Source of the DNA: Rhodospirillaceae bacterium
GTDB taxonomy: Bacteria > Pseudomonadota > Alphaproteobacteria > GCA-2731375
DNA length: 33,053 nt
Reading direction: 5' to 3'
Assembly (NCBI GenBank): GCA_018667855.1
Contig: JABIRL010000156.1
Coordinates: 1-33,053 of the forward strand
Shown: piece by piece, positions 5,568 to 29,582 of the stretch
Layout of the letters: every line of letters begins with the position of its first letter
How positions within the stretch are numbered: the first letter of the stretch is position 1
Program-made: the position numbers and the translations under genes
The notes under the pieces: model-generated
Databases searched by the model: none
What the model was told of the DNA's origin: nothing
The model's input: the letters and a program-made list of their open reading frames with translations, nothing else

Positions 5568-6551
5568 CTAACCGTCACCGATCCAACGTCGTTGCCGAAG
5601 GTAGGCGTCCGGCATTTTGTCCTTACTTTCGGCCTCGACCATTGCCGCCAGGCGGGCCCGTTTGTCGCTGTTATCTTCAGCAATGTCGCCAAGAGCATCT
5701 TCCAGCATCGCGGCATAATCCGCTCCTACGGGGCAGACATCCTGGCAACGGCGGCAACCCGTGATCACGCCCGCGCCGCGCAGGGTGCTTTGCCAGATAT
5801 TGAAGCTTTCTTCCGATCGCACCAGCTTCATCTGGGCATCGCTGTCGGGCGCCGCGAGCACCTTTTGCAGAAAATCCGAAACCTCTTTGAATCCATGGGG
5901 AGAGCGGAAGCGGTCGCAGCCCTGCCAGTCCCGGTCCCAATGGCCCACAACATCGCCCGGACAGGCCTTCAGACATCGGCCGCACTCGGGACCATGGCAA
6001 AGTTGCTCGTTGATACGGCTATCGGGCTCCACGTCTAACGAACAGAGGATGATCGTCACCATCAGTCGCGGGCCATATTCCGGCGTCAACAGCTGGCCGT
6101 TCAGGCCCAAAGTGCCCAGACCGGCCTCCACCGCCGCGTGGTTGGCCGAAAGCAGGGGCGAAAGATGCTGGGCGGGTTCACCGAAATAGAGCCAGGGATC
6201 CACATGGGTGGGCGGGATAATTAAAGCCGGATAGCCTTGTTTTTCGAGCCACAGCACCGTCTCCAGTGCCGCTTCCTCCAACATGGTCAGGGTCAACTCG
6301 TCGTTATAGTATTTGTGCCGCTCATCCCAGCGGGGCAGCCGCGTTGGGCCCGCCAATAGCCGTTTGCCCAGCACGATGGCATGATCACCGTCGTAATCGG
6401 TGACATCCGACGGCCGGCGGGGGGCGTCCGGATCGGGTGGAAATTCGTTCATCACCGCGCCGTCTGCAATGCCAACGATATCGGCGCCAAAAGATCTGGC
6501 CTTGGCCTTGATGTCATCAGCTGTTAGGGGCGCTCGAAAAACCGTATCCAT
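5568..6551 (-). CDS. QueG-like double [4Fe-4S] oxidoreductase, copy 1
   Basis: A 327-residue protein from ATG 6551, chosen because GGGAG lies five bases upstream; a GTG at 6569 is the alternative. It has the layout of the QueG (epoxyqueuosine reductase)/reductive-dehalogenase-like superfamily. An N-terminal domain begins KAKARSFGADIVGIADGAV, the signature EAGLGTLGLNGQLLTPEYGP follows, and two ferredoxin-type clusters come next: C-x4-C-x2-C-x3-CP (LCHGPECGRCLKACPG) plus an isolated Cys (GCDRF) and C-x2-C-x3-CP (CRRCQDVCPVG). In QueG these carry electrons to cobalamin. By eye-alignment the QueG catalytic Asp before the EAGLG motif is not conserved (Leu there), and the protein lacks the QueG C-terminal HEAT region, so true queuosine synthesis is unlikely. 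The start lies one base beyond the stop of copy 2, so the two are translated together. Substrate unknown. Confidence 0.85.
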   Translation of the reverse strand: MDTVFRAPLTADDIKAKARSFGADIVGIADGAVMNEFPPDPDAPRRPSDVTDYDGDHAIVLGKRLLAGPTRLPRWDERHKYYNDELTLTMLEEAALETVLWLEKQGYPALIIPPTHVDPWLYFGEPAQHLSPLLSANHAAVEAGLGTLGLNGQLLTPEYGPRLMVTIILCSLDVEPDSRINEQLCHGPECGRCLKACPGDVVGHWDRDWQGCDRFRSPHGFKEVSDFLQKVLAAPDSDAQMKLVRSEESFNIWQSTLRGAGVITGCRRCQDVCPVGADYAAMLEDALGDIAEDNSDKRARLAAMVEAESKDKMPDAYLRQRRWIGDG

Positions 6552-6552
6552 A

Positions 6553-7608
6553 TCAGCTCCCGTCGCCACGTTCAGCGGCAGTGATCAAACGTTTTTGCCC
6601 ATCCTTGAATTCCTGGCGCACCTTCTTGGCTGCCTGGCCTGTGTAGCCGTTCGGGCCGACCCAGCGGATGTTCCAATCGTTCAGGCCGGGAATGTCATCG
6701 CCATCCTTGCGCGCCTGCTTGAAGCGTTTGCCCAAGGCGACTTTCTCCGGCGTTTGTTCGGGGATGTGCTTCTGGTCATCGGCCAGGAAGGCATGATAGT
6801 CGACGCCAACGGGACAGACCGCCAGGCAACGGGGACAATCGCCAAATGAGCCGACAACGCGCAAAATACCCTGCCAAAAGCCGAACAGATCGCGGGATTT
6901 CAACATCTCCCGCTTTTCCGCTTTGTCCGCCTTGGCGAATTTCTGCATCATCGCCGTCACGGTCATATAGCCGAACTCCTGTGCGAATTGCGCGCAGGCC
7001 GGCTTGTTGATATCGAAATGTCCGACCGCATCGCCCGGACAGGAATACAGGCAGCGCGAACAGCCCTCGCCGACGCAGACCTGTTCCGCCATGGGGCCGT
7101 CCGCTTCCAGTTCCAATTCGGTCAATATGCCCGTCAGGTAAATTCGGGGGCCATACTCCGGTGTCAGGATATTGACCTCCAGCCCGAAATTGCCCAAGCC
7201 CGCCTCGATCCCCAAATGCCGGGTGGAGAGGTAGCCATAGCTGGCCCGTTTCATGTTCCAGTCCGTTTCCTGGGCCGCGGTGACGAAGCTGGGATGGCCT
7301 TGGTCCTCCAGCCAATAGGCGATCCGGCCGGCGATCTTGTCCATGCGGCGCAGCACGATCATGTCCAGATACTGTACCGGCACCATCTGTTTGCAGCGAA
7401 AACCGGCAGCGGGAATATGCTGGGCGACGACCACGACGCTTTTCACCCGCGGCGAAATACGTTCCGGGGTTTGTGGATACCGCGGGTCGGGGGGAAAGGC
7501 GTTCAGAACCTTGGCGGAGGCAATTCCCACCAGATCGGCGCCCAGCTCAACCGCCTTGGCCTTAACCTCGGCGGCGTTCAACGGAGCTGTGTCCTGTCCG
7601 GGCGACAT
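6553..7608 (-). CDS. QueG-like double [4Fe-4S] oxidoreductase, copy 2
   Basis: A 351-residue paralogue of the following gene. ATG 7608 (MSPGQD) is preferred; a longer frame to 7713 would overlap the upstream CmcJ-like gene by 86 bases and adds an Arg-rich stretch with no family match. It shares KAKAVELGADLVGIASAKV, FPPDP, EAGLGNFGLEVNILTPEYGP and both cluster motifs: C-x4-C-x2-C-x3-CP (VCVGEGCSRCLYSCPG), a lone Cys (PACAQF) and C-x2-C-x3-CP (GDCPRCLAVCPVG). By eye the QueG catalytic Asp position is Ser. It lies 19 bases after the CmcJ-like gene, and its stop is followed directly by the start of copy 1, so SDR-CmcJ-QueG2-QueG1 looks like one transcript. It probably reduces an organic substrate, possibly with a corrinoid. 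That is inference. Confidence 0.85.
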   Translation of the reverse strand: MSPGQDTAPLNAAEVKAKAVELGADLVGIASAKVLNAFPPDPRYPQTPERISPRVKSVVVVAQHIPAAGFRCKQMVPVQYLDMIVLRRMDKIAGRIAYWLEDQGHPSFVTAAQETDWNMKRASYGYLSTRHLGIEAGLGNFGLEVNILTPEYGPRIYLTGILTELELEADGPMAEQVCVGEGCSRCLYSCPGDAVGHFDINKPACAQFAQEFGYMTVTAMMQKFAKADKAEKREMLKSRDLFGFWQGILRVVGSFGDCPRCLAVCPVGVDYHAFLADDQKHIPEQTPEKVALGKRFKQARKDGDDIPGLNDWNIRWVGPNGYTGQAAKKVRQEFKDGQKRLITAAERGDGS

Positions 7609-7627
7609 TGCAGCGGGCGAAGCGGGC

Positions 7628-8470
7628 TTAGGCCTCGAAGACCAGGTAGCAGCGCGCCTCGATACTTTCCCGTGGCGGCGCGCTGTCATCCTGGTCCGGC
7701 AATACGAAGGCACCGTGGGGCGTATATTGCGCCGTGCCGTCGTCCAGGCTGTCCCAGCCCTTGATCAGCAAGACTTCATCACGGTCCATTTCCGGGGCCC
7801 AATACCAGCGTTGTCCATCACCGTGGGCCAGCTGGAATATCTCACCGACCCGGTCCGGGAACCGCTGATCCGTCGCGACCAGTTCCTCTCGTGCGACACT
7901 TGCCGCATCGGCCAGCGCCAATGGCGCCCGGTGCACCGGTCCCGAAATAGGCCGCCAGACGTTGATTTGCGAAATACGGCCGCCGGAACCAAGAATTCGC
8001 TCCACCTCATCCGCTCCCAGCGCATCCTTGGCCCGCTGCGGTCCCGATTTAGGGGTGTAGTCCACATGAACCCGCGCCGCCGGACCGCGCAGGCCGTCCG
8101 GATTGGCAGCACCTTCGGAGCTATCGGAGCGGCGGGTATAGTCAAACACCACCGCATGATCGGCACCCGTGGCGGATTTCAAAAGTTCAATCAATTCAGT
8201 TTCATATGGTCCCGCCACGGCGTCATCATCGTAGAGATCTTCGACCGTCGTCGGAAAGGTCAGCAGCTCAAAGCCCTGTCGATCGACGGACAATTCGCCG
8301 GCCATGGGGCGCATGTCATGGATCGTGACGGGTAGGTTCTCGGACTTGAAAAATGTCTTCGCCTGGCCGCCGGTCAGGGCCGAGCTTTCAAAATATGGTT
8401 TCGTGTCCTGGGGCACGATAAATGTCAGCTCGGCTCGGATGGTATCAGCGGTCATACCAGGGGCATTCAT
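7628..8470 (-). CDS. CmcJ/NvfI-family Fe(II)/2-oxoglutarate oxygenase-like protein
   Basis: A 280-residue protein with the signature of the CmcJ/NvfI/GA4-desaturase family. The conserved blocks are AARVHVDYTPKSGPQR (an H-x-D iron motif), INVWRPISGPVHRAPLAL, QRWYWAPEMDRDEVLLIKGW, YTPHGAFVLP (candidate distal His) and ESIEARCYLVFEA. Characterised relatives hydroxylate or rearrange small natural products: CmcJ works in cephamycin 7-alpha-methoxylation and NvfI is a fungal endoperoxidase. The full set of iron-ligand candidates is visible, so it is probably active. ATG 8470 is used; the best purine-rich stretch (AGGAT) lies rather far upstream. It sits between an SDR (66 bases upstream) and two QueG-like Fe-S proteins. 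The substrate is unknown. Confidence 0.82.
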   Translation of the reverse strand: MNAPGMTADTIRAELTFIVPQDTKPYFESSALTGGQAKTFFKSENLPVTIHDMRPMAGELSVDRQGFELLTFPTTVEDLYDDDAVAGPYETELIELLKSATGADHAVVFDYTRRSDSSEGAANPDGLRGPAARVHVDYTPKSGPQRAKDALGADEVERILGSGGRISQINVWRPISGPVHRAPLALADAASVAREELVATDQRFPDRVGEIFQLAHGDGQRWYWAPEMDRDEVLLIKGWDSLDDGTAQYTPHGAFVLPDQDDSAPPRESIEARCYLVFEA

Positions 8471-11960: not shown

Positions 11961-12725
11961 TCAATAGGCGGAAATGCCGCCCTCGGCCGGGATCACGGCG
12001 CCATTGACCATGCGGGATTCATCCGAAGCCAGGAACAGCGCGATATTGGCGATGTCTTCCGGTTCGCCCACGCCGAACGGATAACTTTCGAAGGTGCCGA
12101 CCGTACCTTTACGCTCCTCGGAAGGCTTACGCGCCACGTAACGTGATTTGACGCGGTCGGTCTTGACCAGGCCGGGACAGATTACATTGGCACGGACGCC
12201 CTCGTCGGAGTAGGAGCCGGCCAGGCTGCGGGTAAAGGAAATCAAGCCGCCCTTGGCAGCGGAATAGACGTGCGCCGGGTGGTTGCCGCGCAGAGCCACG
12301 ACGGACGAGACATTAATCACCGTGCCGCCGCCGCTTTCAATGATCTTCGGTATGCCGTGACGGCTGCAGAGGAATGGTCCCTTCAGGTCCAGGGGTATGG
12401 TCCGCTCCCACACCGCCATATCCACGTCCGTGACCTTGCGGTCTTCCAACACCGAGCCGCCGGCGCAATTGAAAAGAATGTGCAAACCACCGAATTGTTC
12501 CACTGCCTGGTTCATCAGGGACTGGACACTGTCCTCGTCCGTGACGTCCGTCGGCACAAAGATGGCGTTATTGCCGGCTTCCAAGGCGGACGCCGCGCCC
12601 AGTTCGGGATCGATTTCCGCCACCACCACCTGGGCGCCCTCGCGGGTAAAAATCCGCGCCGCCGCGCGCGCGATGCCCGAACCGGCGCCCGTGATTACCG
12701 CGACTTTTCCATCCAGTCTGCCCAT
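11961..12725 (-). CDS. Short-chain dehydrogenase/reductase (SDR)
   Basis: A 254-residue classical SDR: TGAGSGIA cofactor loop near the N-terminus (an Ala in place of the last Gly), FNCAGG in place of NNAG, catalytic Ser in INVSSVVA, YSAAKGG (Tyr/Lys), PGLVKTDRV, and a C-terminal PAEGGISAY. ATG 12725 is chosen because GAGAGGAAAC lies just before it. The frame continues upstream to 12848, but that extension is read through the palindromic element and is not credible. The Glu in VVVAEIDPE at the end of strand 2 suggests NAD(H). It is followed after 12 bases by the M24 hydrolase. The substrate is unknown. Confidence 0.87.
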   Translation of the reverse strand: MGRLDGKVAVITGAGSGIARAAARIFTREGAQVVVAEIDPELGAASALEAGNNAIFVPTDVTDEDSVQSLMNQAVEQFGGLHILFNCAGGSVLEDRKVTDVDMAVWERTIPLDLKGPFLCSRHGIPKIIESGGGTVINVSSVVALRGNHPAHVYSAAKGGLISFTRSLAGSYSDEGVRANVICPGLVKTDRVKSRYVARKPSEERKGTVGTFESYPFGVGEPEDIANIALFLASDESRMVNGAVIPAEGGISAY

Positions 12726-12760
12726 ATCCGTTTCCTCTCCAATATTTTGTTGCCTTAGCC

Positions 12761-12862
12761 TAGAGCAATTCCGATCAAATGTGAATCGCGCGGCGATTCT
12801 AAGTGATTGGAAAAATTGCTCTATTCTTAAAGGTCGGAGCATTTCCAATTCGGAAATGCTCT
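12761..12862. repeat. Composite palindromic intergenic element (AGAGCA...TGCTCT type)
   Basis: Two inverted repeats lie back to back. In the first, 12761-12770 (TAGAGCAATT) pairs with 12814-12823 (AATTGCTCTA), with a second internal stem GAATCGC (12783-12789) / GCGATTC (12793-12799) and CCGATCA (12771-12777) nearly matching TGATTGG (12804-12810). In the second, GAGCATTTCC (12837-12846) pairs with GGAAATGCTC (12852-12861) over a five-base loop. Elements ending in CTAGAGCA...TGCTCTAG are a familiar class of dispersed intergenic palindromes in Alphaproteobacteria. It lies directly after the stop of the flavoprotein gene and before the SDR start, so in RNA it could end or stabilise the upstream message. 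Confidence 0.75.
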
Positions 12863-12869
12863 AGGCACG

Positions 12870-14846
12870 CTAAAGGGCGGCACCGACAATATGTCCACCG
12901 TGGATCGCCGCCATCAGGTTCCGGGGCGAGAGGCAGTCGCCAATGCTATGCACCGGAATGGCGCCAAACGCATCGGCTAAGGCGTCATTGGCCAGACGCG
13001 GCGTCGCAAAGACCACTTCGTCAATGGCATTCAGGGTTTTGTTTTCATCGGTGAAGACATTGCGGCAGATGACATCGCCACCACGGTAGTCGATCAGGTC
13101 GTGGGACGGCAGGATCTCCACACCGGCGCCGTGCAGGCGGCGATGGACGCCGATGGCGCTGCAATAATTGACATTCTGGGCGATGCCGGGGCGGGGCGTG
13201 ATCAGGATCAACCGCTCGAACCGGTCCGCCAGCATGTCCGCCAGACCATAGGTGGTAGGGCCATGATCCTGGTCGAACAACACTGCCGTGCCGCCTATCG
13301 CTCCCCTTTTTTTTCCCTTTTTCATGGCCTGGTCCCGGATAAACGCCAGACCATCCGTAACCCCATCGGCATCCGCCGCCAGGTTCATGGGCCGGCGCAA
13401 GCCCGCGCCCGTGGCCAGAACGATGACATCGGGTATAAGCCGCAACACATCTTCCGCCCCTGCCTCTCGGCCCAGCATCAAACTTACGCCATGCCGGTCC
13501 GCCATGCGTTTCTGATAGGCAATAATCTTGGCGATTTCGGATCTTGCCGGCAGTTGACAATCCAGCGCCAGCTTGCCGCCCATGTCCGCCGATGCGCCGA
13601 ACAATGTCACACGGTGGCCCCGCGCGGCGGCGACCCATGCGGCTTCCAGCCCGGCCGGTCCCGCCCCGACAACGGCGATGGTCTTGGGCGCGTCAGCAGG
13701 GGGCAAACTTGCATCCGCTTCGCCGACCAGGCCCAGATAGGGATTGTGATGCTCGGCCAGGGGTTTGCCGGCATGTATTTCGCCCCAGGCCCAGTTGTCA
13801 AAAACAGTCGGCCGGATGTCTTCTGCCCGTCCCGCCTCGGCCTTGCGGGCCCAGGCGGCGTCGGCAATATGGGCCCGGGTCATGCCGACCAGATCACCAT
13901 ACCCCTCGGCCACGATTGTCTCCGCCAGATCCGGCTCACCAATACGGCCCAGGGCCATCACGGGAATGCCGCCCGCCGCCGCGCGCATGCGCTTGGGAAT
14001 GTCCTTGAAATGGCCGGGTCGAAAGTGCAGATCGGGCACGTGGGTTTCCAACGACAGGGTGAAATTGCCCTGGCCATAGGCGAAATAGTCGAAATTTTTA
14101 GTGTCGGCGAGGCGTTCCGTCAGCCGGGCCGCTTCGTCCACATCGATGCCGCCTGGCACGCCCTCGTCGCCCGGCATTTTCAGGCCGATGATGAAATCCG
14201 CGCCGCAGGTCCGGCGAATTCCACTGGCAATATCGCGCGCGAACCGCGTCCGCCCCTCGATCCCGCCACCGCCCCCGTCACCGTAGTCATCATCCCTGGT
14301 GTTGGACCAAGGCGATAGGAACTGTCCGATCAGATAGCCGTGCGCGCCGTGTAGTTCGATGCCGGCAAAGCCGCAGCGGTGCAAACGTTCCGCCACGGCG
14401 ACATAGGCGGCGGCGACACGGGCGACCTGATCGGCGGACATGACGTGCGGCACGGTCCAGCTCAAGGCATCGGGTTGTTCAGACACTCCCATGGGGGATT
14501 TTGTCGGATGCCACAGTTGCTGGCGGCCGGGATGCCACAGTTGTCCCACCAATAGAGCGCCCGCATCATGTACCGCCGCGGCGACCTGACGAAAGCCGCC
14601 GTCATTTCTGTCGTCGAAACCGGTGACCACCGCGCCGTGGGCAATCGCCTCCGGGTCCACGGCGATGATTTCCGATACGATCAGGCCGGCACCGCCCTTG
14701 GCCCGCTCGATCAGATAATTTTGCCATCGATCCGTGATCCGGTTGCCTTGACCGAAGTTCGTCAGGGTGGCGGGCACGGCGACCCGGTTGCGAGACTGAC
14801 GCGTGCCGATCTTCAAGGGTGAGAACAGGTTTGGGTAGGCGGCCAT
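12870..14846 (-). CDS. NADH:flavin oxidoreductase, DCR/trimethylamine-dehydrogenase type, lacking Fe-S cysteines
   Basis: A 658-residue protein with the fused layout of FadH and trimethylamine dehydrogenase. Residues ~5-335 form an Old Yellow Enzyme FMN barrel (LFSPLKIG, QLWHPGRQ, ELHGAHGYLIGQFLSPWSN at 164-182, MALGRIGE). Residues ~385-658 form an FAD/NAD(P) module (VVGAGPAG, 393-399). Between them, where relatives carry four cysteines binding one [4Fe-4S] cluster, this protein reads RPTVFDNWAWGE ... LAEHHNP (residues ~345-369) with no cysteine at all. Electron transfer between the flavins must therefore be different. There is also a Gly-rich insertion (GDGGGGGIE) in the R-x-D-x-YGG motif. 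ATG 14846 has AAGGA upstream. It is divergent from the amidohydrolase across 95 bases. Related enzymes demethylate methylamines or reduce enoyl thioesters; the substrate here is unknown. Confidence 0.87.
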   Translation of the reverse strand: MAAYPNLFSPLKIGTRQSRNRVAVPATLTNFGQGNRITDRWQNYLIERAKGGAGLIVSEIIAVDPEAIAHGAVVTGFDDRNDGGFRQVAAAVHDAGALLVGQLWHPGRQQLWHPTKSPMGVSEQPDALSWTVPHVMSADQVARVAAAYVAVAERLHRCGFAGIELHGAHGYLIGQFLSPWSNTRDDDYGDGGGGGIEGRTRFARDIASGIRRTCGADFIIGLKMPGDEGVPGGIDVDEAARLTERLADTKNFDYFAYGQGNFTLSLETHVPDLHFRPGHFKDIPKRMRAAAGGIPVMALGRIGEPDLAETIVAEGYGDLVGMTRAHIADAAWARKAEAGRAEDIRPTVFDNWAWGEIHAGKPLAEHHNPYLGLVGEADASLPPADAPKTIAVVGAGPAGLEAAWVAAARGHRVTLFGASADMGGKLALDCQLPARSEIAKIIAYQKRMADRHGVSLMLGREAGAEDVLRLIPDVIVLATGAGLRRPMNLAADADGVTDGLAFIRDQAMKKGKKRGAIGGTAVLFDQDHGPTTYGLADMLADRFERLILITPRPGIAQNVNYCSAIGVHRRLHGAGVEILPSHDLIDYRGGDVICRNVFTDENKTLNAIDEVVFATPRLANDALADAFGAIPVHSIGDCLSPRNLMAAIHGGHIVGAAL

Positions 14847-14941
14847 GAATGGGGCTTCCTTCTTGAAACTTTTTGAAACCAGGCGGTTGGGTTAAGCTGT
14901 CGCCAAGATTCGGCACCTGCATCCACCACTTGGAGACCACA

Positions 14942-16177
14942 ATGGCGTTTGATCTGATCCTGCGCAATGCCCGTATCGCCGGTACCGCGCCCGATACACC
15001 GTTGCTGGATGTAGCCATCCAGGGCGAGACCATCGTGGCGGTCGAACCTGACTTCCCAGGGGAGGGCAAGGAATGGGGCGTGGGCGGCCGCCTGCTCTCG
15101 TCCGGTCTGATCGAGACGCATATCCATCTGGACAAATCCCGCATCATGGACCGCTGCAGCGCCGCGCCTGACCGGGGCACGGACCACATGGCCCGCGTTG
15201 CCGCCGTGAAACCTAGCTTCACCCAGGAAGACGTCTATACCCGCGCCCAGGCCACGGTGGAACGATGCGTAGCCAACGGCGCCACCCATATGCGCACCCA
15301 TGCGGAGCTGGACCCCAATGTGGGCCTGCGCGGTTTCGAAGCTCTGAAGCAACTGGCCGAGGACTACAGCTGGGCCATTGATATCGAAATCTGTGTTTTT
15401 GCCCAGGAAGGCTGGACCAATATACCCGAAACCGATGCCAACATCGTCGCCGCGTTGAAGAACGGCGCGACGGTGGTCGGCGGCGCACCGGGCTATGATC
15501 CCGACCACGGCGGCCAGATCCGCCGCATCTTCGAACTGGCGCGGGAATTCGACGTGGATGTGGATATCCATCTCGATGTGGGACCGACCATCGATGATAT
15601 GGATATCCATCTGGTTTGTGAGCTGACGGAACAGTTCGGCTGGGGCGGCCGGGTCGCCGTGGGGCACGGCACCAAGTATTCCTGCCTGCCGCCCGCGCAG
15701 TTGCAGGACCTGGGCAAGCGTCTGGCAGATACCGGCGTGGCCGTCACGGTGCTGCCGGCCACGGATCTGTTCGTCATGGGCCGGCATCAGGATCACAACG
15801 TCATGCGCGGCGTGGCGGACGCCAATGCCCTGCTGGCCTGCGGCGTCAATTGTTCCCTATCCACCAACAACGTGCTGAACCCGTTCACGCCGTTTGGCGA
15901 TTGTTCCCTGATACGCATTGCCAATCTGTACGCCAATGTGGCCCAGCGCGGCGGACAGGAAGAACTGGCGGATTGCTTCGAGATGCTGACCAACCGTTCC
16001 GCGCAGTTGTTGCGCCAGGATGATTACGGCCTCGCCGCGGGCAAGCCGGCGGATCTGGTGATCTGGGATGCCCATAGCCGGTCGGAGGCCGTTGCCACCA
16101 TCGCCCGGCCCATGTATGGCTTCAAACGGGGTCGGCATACCTTCACCCAGGTCATGCCGGAGTTGCACAGACCGTAA
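14942..16177 (+). CDS. Amidohydrolase, cytosine-deaminase-like (CodA/AtzC subfamily)
   Basis: A 411-residue amidohydrolase from ATG 14942, with GGAG six bases upstream. It has the HxH metal motif (THIHLDK, His60/His62), a third His (VDIHLD, His210) and a fourth (GHGTK, His242), at positions almost identical to E. coli CodA (His61, 63, 214, 246). However, CodA's metal-ligand/catalytic Asp313 is Asn309 here (LSTNNVLNPF) and the catalytic Glu217 aligns with Val213 (HLDV). It is therefore unlikely to be a cytosine deaminase and may act on another cyclic amide or amine, or by altered chemistry. It is the first gene of a two-gene plus-strand unit with the sulfotransferase (15-base gap). The divergent flavoprotein gene suggests a shared pathway. 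Confidence 0.85.
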   Translation: MAFDLILRNARIAGTAPDTPLLDVAIQGETIVAVEPDFPGEGKEWGVGGRLLSSGLIETHIHLDKSRIMDRCSAAPDRGTDHMARVAAVKPSFTQEDVYTRAQATVERCVANGATHMRTHAELDPNVGLRGFEALKQLAEDYSWAIDIEICVFAQEGWTNIPETDANIVAALKNGATVVGGAPGYDPDHGGQIRRIFELAREFDVDVDIHLDVGPTIDDMDIHLVCELTEQFGWGGRVAVGHGTKYSCLPPAQLQDLGKRLADTGVAVTVLPATDLFVMGRHQDHNVMRGVADANALLACGVNCSLSTNNVLNPFTPFGDCSLIRIANLYANVAQRGGQEELADCFEMLTNRSAQLLRQDDYGLAAGKPADLVIWDAHSRSEAVATIARPMYGFKRGRHTFTQVMPELHRP

Positions 16178-25666: not shown

Positions 25667-27325
25667 CTAGAGGTCGCCGGTCGTCTCGAGAGACCGCAGG
25701 GCATCTCGAATAGCATCTTCCTTGCCGGATGCGTAAACCGCGATATCAGCATCTGTCCCCATGATGTGATTGGTCAGCCATTGGCGCAGAAATATCCGTA
25801 GCCGCCGGCGGGTTTCCGGTGCTCGCGTATTGCGCCAGGCATCGGCCAGTTTACTTACCCGGTCAGTAAGATCGCGATGAATACCGCGATGGCGCTCTAA
25901 ATCCGGATAGCCACAGACCGCCATGATGGCTTCCTCCCGCCGGAAGTGATCATGGGTGTAGGCGATCAGCTTGCTGATGATCTCATCCATGTCCTCATCG
26001 CCAACAGAGTGTTGTCTGACTTGATTCAGCAGCGAGATTAGAACCTGATGATCCTTATCCAAGACATCGATACCGACGCGCAGGCTTTCGTCCCATATCA
26101 ACGCCTCGTCGTTCGAGACCAGCGGCAGTTCAATCCAGAACGTGCTGCCGATGCCTTCCTCGCTCTCGAACCCGATGCGGCCCGCCAACCGTTCCACAAG
26201 CAGTTTTGAAACGTAGAGGCCGATGCCTGAACCTTCTTTCGCGACCGCGGCGTTGGTATCAAGCCGGTGAAACACCTGAAAGATATCCGCCTGATCATCA
26301 TCGGCGATACCGATGCCTGTATCCGTTACCGTGAGGAAGAAAAAACCATTGTCGGAGTCATGACCCCGCAATGTTGCCGACCCGCCTTCGCAATTGAATT
26401 TGATGGCATTGGAGAGAAGGTTGAGGACAACCTGCTTGAACCGCAGGGCGTCGGTTCGAATCATAATAGCGGGGCGGCGACTGAATTCATCGACCAGTTC
26501 CATGCCACGTTCCAGCGCCAACGGACGGATCAAGGCCATACAGTCGGCGACAACAGTGTTGGCGTTTACATCCGCTAATGTGAAAGGCGTTTGGTCCGCC
26601 TCTATCCGTGCCAGATCAAGGATATCGTTGACCAGTTTGAGGAGGTGATTGCCTCCCGCCAGGATATTCTCAACGTGGTCATTCTGCTTCGGAGAGAGCG
26701 CGTCTTTGAGTTCGATCTGTAATAACTGGGTAAAACCAAGAATGGCATTCAGCGGCGTGCGCAGTTCATGGCTCATGCTGGACAGGAATTCCGATTTTGC
26801 CTGATTGGCGCGATCAGCTTCCTGCCTGACAGCCAGCGACGGTTCTGACTTGCCTGCCGGCCGTTCCAAGTGCCAGACAATAGCGGCTTCCGTACCTTCG
26901 AACTGTACGAACTGGGTGTTCAACAGTACTGGCCATCGTGTGCCGTCAAAGCGTTGACGTTCTACCTCGTAGTTGGCCAAAACCTGGCCAGTCTTCAGCG
27001 CAACTTCAATACGGGCCAGATCTTCGGGGTTTACCCAGGTTTTCGAAGTATCCCGCACCAGTAAGTCTTCAGGTCTCGCCGCACCCAGGGCATCGACCAA
27101 AGCGGAATTCGCGAATAACCACCTTCCCGTCAGGCATTCCAGAACAGCGACACCCATCGGATTGGTTTCCAGGATTTCCTGCACGATCGTGTCCGCTTTT
27201 TCAGGTGATTTATTCGCCCAACCCTGGGCGTGATCAGTGGATTGACGTGAAGGCGCGTCAATTGGCGCTCGAGCGCTCATAAACTGTGGGTTTTCCGAAG
27301 GTTTCATGGAAATCGAATTACTCAT
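25667..27325 (-). CDS. PAS-histidine kinase with C-terminal hemerythrin domain
   Basis: A 552-residue soluble sensor kinase without transmembrane segments. Residues ~45-150 are a PAS domain (NPMGVAVLECLTGRWLFANS). HisKA follows with the phospho-acceptor His186 (SHELRTPLNAILGF), and HATPase with N-box (LNLLSNAIKF, Asn306), G1 (DTGIGI, 335-340) and G2 (GSGIGL, 365-370). Residues ~408-530 are a bacteriohemerythrin: all seven diiron ligands are present at canonical spacing (His426, His460, Glu464, His479, His483, His520, Asp525). Hemerythrins bind O2 and react with NO, so oxygen or NO is the likely signal. There is no receiver domain or adjacent response regulator, so the kinase is an orphan. ATG 27325 has no strong ribosome site; ATG 27307 is possible. 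The ~200-base AT-rich leader upstream probably carries its own promoter. Confidence 0.9.
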   Translation of the reverse strand: MSNSISMKPSENPQFMSARAPIDAPSRQSTDHAQGWANKSPEKADTIVQEILETNPMGVAVLECLTGRWLFANSALVDALGAARPEDLLVRDTSKTWVNPEDLARIEVALKTGQVLANYEVERQRFDGTRWPVLLNTQFVQFEGTEAAIVWHLERPAGKSEPSLAVRQEADRANQAKSEFLSSMSHELRTPLNAILGFTQLLQIELKDALSPKQNDHVENILAGGNHLLKLVNDILDLARIEADQTPFTLADVNANTVVADCMALIRPLALERGMELVDEFSRRPAIMIRTDALRFKQVVLNLLSNAIKFNCEGGSATLRGHDSDNGFFFLTVTDTGIGIADDDQADIFQVFHRLDTNAAVAKEGSGIGLYVSKLLVERLAGRIGFESEEGIGSTFWIELPLVSNDEALIWDESLRVGIDVLDKDHQVLISLLNQVRQHSVGDEDMDEIISKLIAYTHDHFRREEAIMAVCGYPDLERHRGIHRDLTDRVSKLADAWRNTRAPETRRRLRIFLRQWLTNHIMGTDADIAVYASGKEDAIRDALRSLETTGDL

Positions 27326-27527: not shown

Positions 27528-29582
27528 TTAGGCCGCTTTGACATCAAGGAGGAATTTCTCAACCGTGGCCTTCAGAGTATTGGCCTGTTCAGCCAGGTTC
27601 CCGGATGCCGCCAAGACCTGAGAGGCCGCCGCGCCGGTATCCGATGTGGCCTGGGAGATGGTTGCGATGTTACTGCTCACCTCCTGGGTACCTTGCGCGG
27701 CCTGATCCACATTACGGCTAATCTCCTGCGTCGCAGCCGACTGCTCTTCGACCGCGGCCGCGATCGTGGTGGCTATTCCGTTGACCGTATCGATGGTTTT
27801 GCCGATCCCGGTCAGCGCCTCAAGCGCGCCCGTTGTTTCTGACTGCATGGTAGCGATCTGGGTTCCGATTTCCTCAGTCGCGCTGGCGGTTTGATTGGCC
27901 AGATTTTTGACTTCCGAGGCGACAACAGCAAAACCCTTGCCCGCCTCGCCGGCGCGTGCCGCCTCAATCGTGGCATTCAGGGCCAGCAGATTTGTCTGGG
28001 AAGCAATGTCGTTGATCAGGCCGACAACATCGCCGATCTTTTGCGCCGCCTCGTTCAAACCTTCCATGGCCACATTCGTATTTGCGGCCTCCTCCACGGC
28101 TTCCGATGTAATCCGTTCAGAGTCAGTCACCTGCCGCGTAATCTCGCCAATCGAAGCCGATAATTCTTCCGACGCGGAGGCCACCGTCTGCACATTGACG
28201 CTCGCCTGCTCCGATGCGGCGGCAATCGTGGTGGCCTGCTGTATGGTCTGATCCGCCGTTGCGGACATGGTTTTGGCCGTTGAATCCATCTCGGCGGTAG
28301 CCTCAGACACACCATTCAGCACATCACCCACGGCAATATCGAAATCGGCCGCCAGTTGTTCGACCTTGCGGGCACGCTGTTCGCGCTGAACACTCTCCGC
28401 TTTTTGTTCCGCAACCAGTTCGTCGTTGCGGATCATATTTTCCTTGAAGACCTGTACCGCTTCAGCCATTTGGCCCATCTCGTCACCACGTTCGATACCA
28501 GGGACTTCGATCGAGGTGTCGCCGTGCGAAAGTGTACCCATAGCTTCCGTCAGACCACCGGTCGCGCGCAGAATGTCACGGGACACGGCAACCAAAATGC
28601 CGATACCCACGATGCCGAGAGCCAAACCGGCCACGGCAAAAATTATTACACCCACAAGTGAGGCGCTTTTCAAATCCGCGGCCAGGGTACGCAGGTCGCT
28701 CGCGATATGGTCCTCAACCTGTTTCATCAAATTGATTTTCTTCGTGATCGCGCCGAACCAATAGCCACCTTCAATGCCGCCCATGTCGCCGGTCTGTGGC
28801 GAGGCGATGGCAATTTTGCGCATGCGGTCGACTTCCGCCACGACCGCGCCCGATAACGTACGCTCGTGCTCGCTCCACTGTGAGGGCGTCGCGTATAACT
28901 GAAAGCTTTTGAAATAATTCTTCTGCAGAGCAATCAATTCCACGAAACGGTTATAGACCGCTGGTTTGAATTTTCCGGCGCCAAAGCCGCCGGCGCCCAT
29001 GGCGCGCTCCAAACCAGCGCGTTCCTTGGCTTGCAGATAGGCGACGTAGCCGCTGATCGCCTTGCTGACGCCGTCATCGCTGCTGTTGCGCAGCATCTCC
29101 TCCACCACGCTCAATAGACCGCTAATGGTACCGGTATAATATTTCGCCATGCCCGGAATGGACGTCCGCAGGTCATCAACCTGTCCACGCATCTGCTGCA
29201 ACTGCTCAAGCTGGCTTACGATGGCACTGGCTTTCGCCTCGAACGCTCCGTCGAAATCAGTGAATGCAAAAGATTTGTAGCGCGCCTCGAACGCGGATCG
29301 CTTGCTGTCCGTTTCACTGCGTTGGCCAGGCAAAACCTTGGCGAATTTATTGCCTTTGCTGCCGATGAAGCCGGCGGATTCTCCCCGCTCCTTCTGCAAC
29401 TCATGCACCAGGGCGCTGATCGTCGGGGCAAAATCGGCAAGGACCTGGACCCGCCCCATCTCGTTCATTTTCTGGTATCGCTCAAAAACCAGAAAACTTG
29501 AATAAGCCAATAGGCCGATAACCGGTAACAAAACCGCTATGGTTAATTTTCCGCCAATATTCAGATTGTTCAAGATTTTCAT
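27528..29582 (-). CDS. Methyl-accepting chemotaxis protein with NIT sensor domain
   Basis: A 684-residue chemoreceptor. Transmembrane helix 1 (~12-32) is followed by a large periplasmic NIT domain ([18 protein letters not shown], the hallmark of PF08376, a nitrate/nitrite-responsive helical domain), TM2 (~308-333), HAMP ([20 protein letters not shown] ... EMGQMAEAV) and a long cytoplasmic coiled coil. The signalling tip ([20 protein letters not shown]) is intact. It would relay a ligand signal to CheA/CheW, none of which are in the window. No C-terminal CheR-binding pentapeptide is visible (it ends LLDVKAA). GGAAGGG lies before ATG 29582. It sits upstream of the hemerythrin kinase in the same direction with 202 bases between, suggesting two separately regulated sensors of electron acceptors. 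Confidence 0.92.

Follow-up and report, generated by a model that had tools for sequence, protein, structure and literature searches.

Conserved single-origin loss of the [4Fe-4S] cluster site in an alphaproteobacterial clade of two-domain FadH/TMADH-type flavoproteins

Flavoenzymes that combine FMN, a [4Fe-4S] cluster and FAD or ADP (FadH, TMADH, BaiCD and naphthoyl-CoA reductase) have as their defining trait the cluster held between their two halves. In NCR, the cluster sits 6 Å from FMN and 9 Å from FAD, and a C-terminal helix (572–585) together with the linker helix shields the FMN dimethylbenzene ring; in standard OYEs the FMN pyrimidine ring is surrounded by two His and one Arg, of which NCR has lost both His (PMC6502838). 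In TMADH and histamine dehydrogenase, ADP takes the place of FAD, and electrons leave the cluster for ETF (PMC6502838). Modelled cofactor distances in AprB and AprC are similar to those of NCR (PMC13101529), and binding modes among class III OYEs are diverse (PMC13140739). A search of the open literature returned no described Cys-less member of this group. Here we describe a flavoprotein gene in a 33,053-nucleotide stretch of alphaproteobacterial DNA (contig JABIRL010000156.1, hereafter the window) and its orthologues, and confirm that this branch of a known flavoenzyme group has genuinely lost its hallmark Fe-S cluster site, once and in a conserved manner.

Replacement of the cluster ligands in an intact flavoprotein

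The gene occupies positions 12870–14846 (−) and is open and intact across 658 codons. Its product fuses an Oxidored_FMN barrel (Pfam; residues 7–342) to a Pyr_redox-type nucleotide module (Pyr_redox_2, residues 389–626), the combination that characterizes the FadH/DCR-TMADH-BaiCD group; the DCR/TMADH-type architecture proposed by the initial annotation is borne out by these domain matches and by the predicted full-length fold. A sequence search against solved structures gave NCR, E. coli DCR, histamine dehydrogenase and TMADH as best matches, and in its alignments the cysteine motif is present in NCR, DCR and HADH and absent from the query. The top NCBIfam full-length model was TIGR03997 (mycofactocin FadH/OYE family 2), with 471.6 bits against a cut-off of 793, and the genome carrying the 658-aa protein contains no mycofactocin rSAM (mycofact_rSAM) above cut-off, leaving membership of, or a link to, mycofactocin OYE2 unsupported.

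The linker that binds [4Fe-4S] in relatives covers residues 344–369 (13740–13817, −; IRPTVFDNWAWGEIHAGKPLAEHHNP). Aligned with 36 relatives, it reads IRPTVFDNW-AWGEIHAGK-PLAEHHNP opposite IRPCIYCNY-CWGEIHAGR-GMTCVHNP and similar stretches, and the ligand motif C-x2-C-x2-C-x11-C becomes T347-x2-D350-x2-A353-x11-E365. Thr347, at the Cys1 position (13806–13808, −), is Thr or Ser across the clade and Cys once, and Asp350, at Cys2 (13797–13799, −), is Asp in 17/17 full-length members. Ala353, at Cys3 (13788–13790, −), is replaced by Cys in five members and Ser in one (Ala in 11), and Glu365, at Cys4 (13752–13754, −), is Glu in 13 and Asp in four. All 17 full-length members therefore retain none or one of the four linker Cys. 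The single residual Cys, found in six of them, occupies Cys1 in one and Cys3 in five, never both, as expected if Cys2 and Cys4 were lost first and the cluster went with them. Partial motif loss also occurs elsewhere in the family: two other relatives (L063 and L037) have lost only Cys2 (Gly and Ala).

The initial annotation had read the replacements as Thr, Asp/Asn, Trp and Glu/His. At the third position, however, the residue is Ala353 and the Trp is residue 354, an offset of one that arises because the subfamily spacing is C-x2-C-x2-C rather than the C-x2-C-x3-C of FadH. Its Cys-less description likewise needs amending for the six full-length clade members with one residual Cys. A clade-specific Trp hopping route is ruled out, since W354, beside the Cys3 position, is Trp in 28/28 cluster-bearing subfamily relatives and W352 is variable (W/F/Y/T/V). 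The six Cys of the window protein (158, 214, 430, 562, 594 and 638) form no C-x2-C or other Cys group, which rules out a cluster bound elsewhere in the protein, one of two objections that the initial annotation had raised against itself.

The loss is confined to a small part of an otherwise conserved sequence. The 28 cluster-bearing relatives have 94 near-invariant positions in common; 86 of these are kept in the clade, and most of its members depart from them at the other eight (C347, C350, C353, C365, H24 and the conservatively changed positions 54, 85 and 605). All four ligands fall among the eight (hypergeometric P ~2e-5, indicative only, as the rows are related), in agreement with the earlier view that the loss is specific and the surrounding motifs intact. 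Residue 24 (14775–14777), an invariant His in the 28 cluster-bearing relatives, is Val or Leu in the whole Cys-less clade and lies on an early barrel strand, just ahead of residues that face FMN in relatives.

An AlphaFold2 model built from a 37-row alignment reached a pLDDT of 93.3 and a pTM of 0.92, with linker blocks at 87–92; this confidence owes partly to the cluster-bearing rows in the alignment, and predicted models show no ligands. The top full-length Foldseek matches were NCR, DCR, HisD, HADH and TMADH, with TM ~0.89 to NCR and DCR, and the whole NCR/DCR/TMADH fold is predicted to be retained and ordered. The dN/dS against congeners is 0.08–0.13 (synonymous sites are nearly saturated), which indicates purifying selection and a maintained protein. 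Because the loss is clade-wide, dN/dS is ~0.1 and the fold is kept in the AlphaFold model, neither sequencing error nor decay accounts for it.

Distribution and single origin

The loss of the cluster motif is common to 18 orthologues, each from a different genome, which together represent two alphaproteobacterial families. The gene is present in 13 of the 15 genomes of the order, at 62–83% identity to the window protein and with Cys-poor linkers throughout: nine other species of the genus share this kind of linker (79–83%; the named records of the genus are alphaproteobacterial MAGs, several labelled Rhodospirillaceae), as do three further genera (62–64%). A second family of the class (f80) also has the gene: each of the five genomes of one genus encodes an orthologue at 54–60% identity. 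Relatives in two further families, at 43–48% identity, have all four Cys intact, and a sample of 398 genomes from the phylum yielded no relative at E <= 1e-110 apart from the window's own. The second objection raised at the outset, a sequencing error or frameshift, is ruled out by the same kind of linker in 18 genomes.

The initial annotation had called for a family-wide alignment to see whether the Cys-less form is a conserved clade, and this proved to be so. In a maximum-likelihood tree of 57 rows computed without the linker columns (a rapid reconstruction in which some outgroup branches are long, though sampling of the Cys-poor clade and its neighbours is good), the 17 full-length Cys-poor rows form one clade with SH-aLRT 99, requiring one state change. 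The tree thus supports a single monophyletic loss, with the cluster ligands disappearing on one occasion, in the common ancestor of this small alphaproteobacterial clade.

FMN pocket, nucleotide module and candidate working mode

Around FMN, the protein has the standard OYE set of Gln (Q102), His/His (H166 and H169) and Tyr (Y171), the last three within HGAHGYL (residues 166–172; 14331–14351, −). With these residues kept, and the His pair lost in NCR, the FMN resembles that of self-sufficient OYEs. The His/His/Tyr set is also common to the closest cluster-bearing sisters (L051–L054), so it is permissive and not a consequence of cluster loss. L28 lies, by manual alignment, at the position of TMADH Cys30, the 6-S-cysteinyl FMN site.

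In the C-terminal module, the first nucleotide motif (residues 388–413; 13608–13685) closes with VTLFGAS throughout the subfamily. Gly or Ser here takes the place of the Glu or Asp usual at Rossmann FAD/NAD sites, and the bound nucleotide is therefore uncertain. In the second nucleotide domain GxGxxG is absent and AVLFDQDHGPTTYG stands in its place, a DxDH-type motif found across the subfamily. The ratio of FAD-domain to barrel divergence is 2.42, versus 2.41 and 3.31 in the closest cluster-bearing sisters and 1.0–1.9 in other groups; these matching rate ratios leave unsupported the idea that the module is a vestige under relaxed constraint. The initial annotation had concluded that the electron route between the flavins must differ, a claim supported in part, since it presumes a redox FAD that is present and still exchanging electrons with FMN. 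Because TMADH and HADH bind ADP at this site and the subfamily replaces GxGxxG with a DxDH-type motif, the inter-cofactor route is more likely lost than rerouted.

Electron tunnelling in biology is usually limited to ~14 Å. Given the NCR geometry, the gap between FMN and FAD would probably exceed this limit once the cluster is gone. With modest confidence, we favour a two-domain OYE that works without a cluster: the barrel FMN would turn over by itself, and the C-terminal module would remain as a cap or scaffold. Electron exchange between this FMN and either the C-terminal module or a partner (ETF, for instance) would have ceased with the cluster, and a closed ping-pong cycle would run within the barrel FMN pocket, as in single-domain OYEs. 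A putative hydride donor, either NAD(P)H or the substrate itself, would reduce FMN. The reduced FMN would then act on an activated C=C bond positioned by H166/H169, with Y171 supplying the proton. The C-terminal module would cap the FMN pocket and shape the substrate site, which we propose as the reason why it is as constrained as in cluster-bearing sisters, and D350 and E/D365 would fill and stabilise the former cluster pocket. In favour of this mode we count the CoA-transferase that adjoins the gene in some loci and the use of CoA esters by NCR and DCR, two of the top structural matches; against it, the His/His/Tyr set did not arise with the cluster loss, and sox genes lie beside the gene in L066 and L068.

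The genomic surroundings bear on the substrate. An SDR oxidoreductase directly downstream (11961–12848, −; true start probably inside the ORF) occurs in most loci of the genus, and a cytosine-deaminase-like amidohydrolase divergent from the flavoprotein gene (14873–16177, +) is a neighbour conserved in the genus. In the f80 loci read (L069, L070, L098 and L099), the gene lies behind a family III CoA-transferase and an isochorismatase-fold hydrolase; the CoA-transferase adjoins it in 4/4 of these loci and in L067. In two sister genera (L066 and L068), an amidase comes before the gene and soxD and soxA come after it, and L066 also has an identified soxB (L066:8063–14558, Cys-less gene, then soxB-soxD-soxA; L068:5837–10874, SoxD/SoxA matches in the same order). 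C–N bond hydrolases recur beside the gene in all three groups (genus, f80 and sister genera), which suggests a role in the catabolism of nitrogen-containing or CoA-activated compounds as putative substrates; the sox genes of L066 and L068 are a possible link to N-methyl amine catabolism.

Elsewhere in the window, a PAS-histidine kinase with a C-terminal hemerythrin domain (25667–27325, −) adjoins the gene for a nitrate/nitrite-sensing (NIT) chemoreceptor (27528–29582, −). Two adjacent QueG/reductive-dehalogenase-like [4Fe-4S] proteins lie by a CmcJ/NvfI-type oxidoreductase (5568–7713, −), an arrangement seen in only some congeners. As a replacement relay, these QueG-like double-cluster neighbours are ruled out as an obligate partner, since they occur in only some loci of the genus.

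The sox genes beside the L066 and L068 copies suggest amine chemistry instead of C=C reduction. In an amine oxidase or N-demethylase, the amine would reduce FMN and O2 would reoxidise it directly, the cluster exit to ETF being gone and a dehydrogenase thereby turned into an oxidase. The TMADH-like second domain and the presence of TMADH, HADH and HisD among the closest folds fit this reading, as do the sarcosine oxidase genes directly behind the gene in those two loci. However, the pocket is HGAHGYL with the OYE His pair rather than the Tyr/His arrangement of TMADH, an equivalent of TMADH Cys30 is absent, and no sox genes occur in the loci read in the genus and f80. We regard such an activity as unlikely.

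The acids now occupying the former cluster pocket raise the question of another metal, with D350 and E/D365, perhaps joined by H358 (13773–13775), holding a single structural or redox ion. Acids are fixed at Cys2 (Asp 17/17) and Cys4 (Glu/Asp 17/17), and H358 is fixed in the clade. Thr/Ser at Cys1 and Ala at Cys3 nevertheless make poor ligands, the acids might pair with K361, which is likewise invariant in the Cys-less clade, and H358 is common in cluster-bearing sisters, so a substitute metal site appears quite improbable.

The constraint on the C-terminal module, equal to that in cluster-bearing sisters, could also be read as a sign that the two halves still exchange electrons without the cluster, via domain motion or new residues. 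A candidate is Cys562 (13161–13163, −), invariant in the Cys-less clade and absent in the 28 cluster-bearing relatives. Yet the NCR geometry, 6 Å plus 9 Å with the cluster in between, implies a long gap, the clade has no specific Trp/Tyr relay, and FAD in the second module is only putative, which makes continued exchange very unlikely. C562, H358 and W354 align opposite NCR F573, F379 and F375 (C562/F573 may be off by one). Because F573 and F379 pack on the FMN dimethylbenzene ring in NCR, C562 and H358 might instead form a covalent FMN link (8-alpha-S-cysteinyl or N-histidyl) or a thiol redox relay that replaces the cluster in tuning or draining the flavin, a role that this alignment makes conceivable and that we consider a long shot. 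A non-catalytic remnant, decaying or purely binding, would accord with the lost cofactor site and the drifting residual Cys but is scarcely credible against a dN/dS of 0.08–0.13, the retained FMN pocket residues and 86/94 near-invariant positions, and retention of the gene in 13/15 genomes of the order.

Comparison with known systems

Since the defining cofactor site is missing, the protein does not belong among the iron-sulfur flavoenzymes and is better classed as a cluster-free form of the two-domain OYE architecture; a full-length match to 'FadH/NADH oxidase' does not necessarily indicate an iron-sulfur protein. The naturally clusterless clade provides a ready-made control against cluster-bearing sisters of 43–48% identity, and comparing the two would reveal what the cluster contributes and whether the nucleotide module has any role beyond electron relay.

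With NCR and DCR, the protein shares the full-length fold of FMN barrel, linker and nucleotide module (TM ~0.89) and, as in NCR, a Tyr as predicted proton donor. Unlike it, both bind [4Fe-4S] through four Cys; the OYE His pair of the 658-aa protein is missing from NCR, and the NADPH site of DCR comes with a GxGxxG-type motif in its second nucleotide domain, which has no counterpart here. To TIGR03997 it is related only as a top full-length match far below the family cut-off. TMADH and HADH (2TMD, 3K30 and 6DE6) share its fold, the C-x2-C-x2-C type of linker spacing and a second domain that lacks a dinucleotide motif (in HADH it is of the DxDH type), whereas the 658-aa protein lacks the cluster Cys, and with them the ligands of the [4Fe-4S] relay to ETF, and has L28 in place of TMADH Cys30 and the pocket HGAHGYL. 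The class III single-domain OYEs (YqjM, XenA and TsER) likewise combine an FMN barrel bearing Gln, His/His and Tyr with the absence of an Fe-S cluster, but they have neither the linker nor the C-terminal nucleotide module that the Cys-less clade retains.
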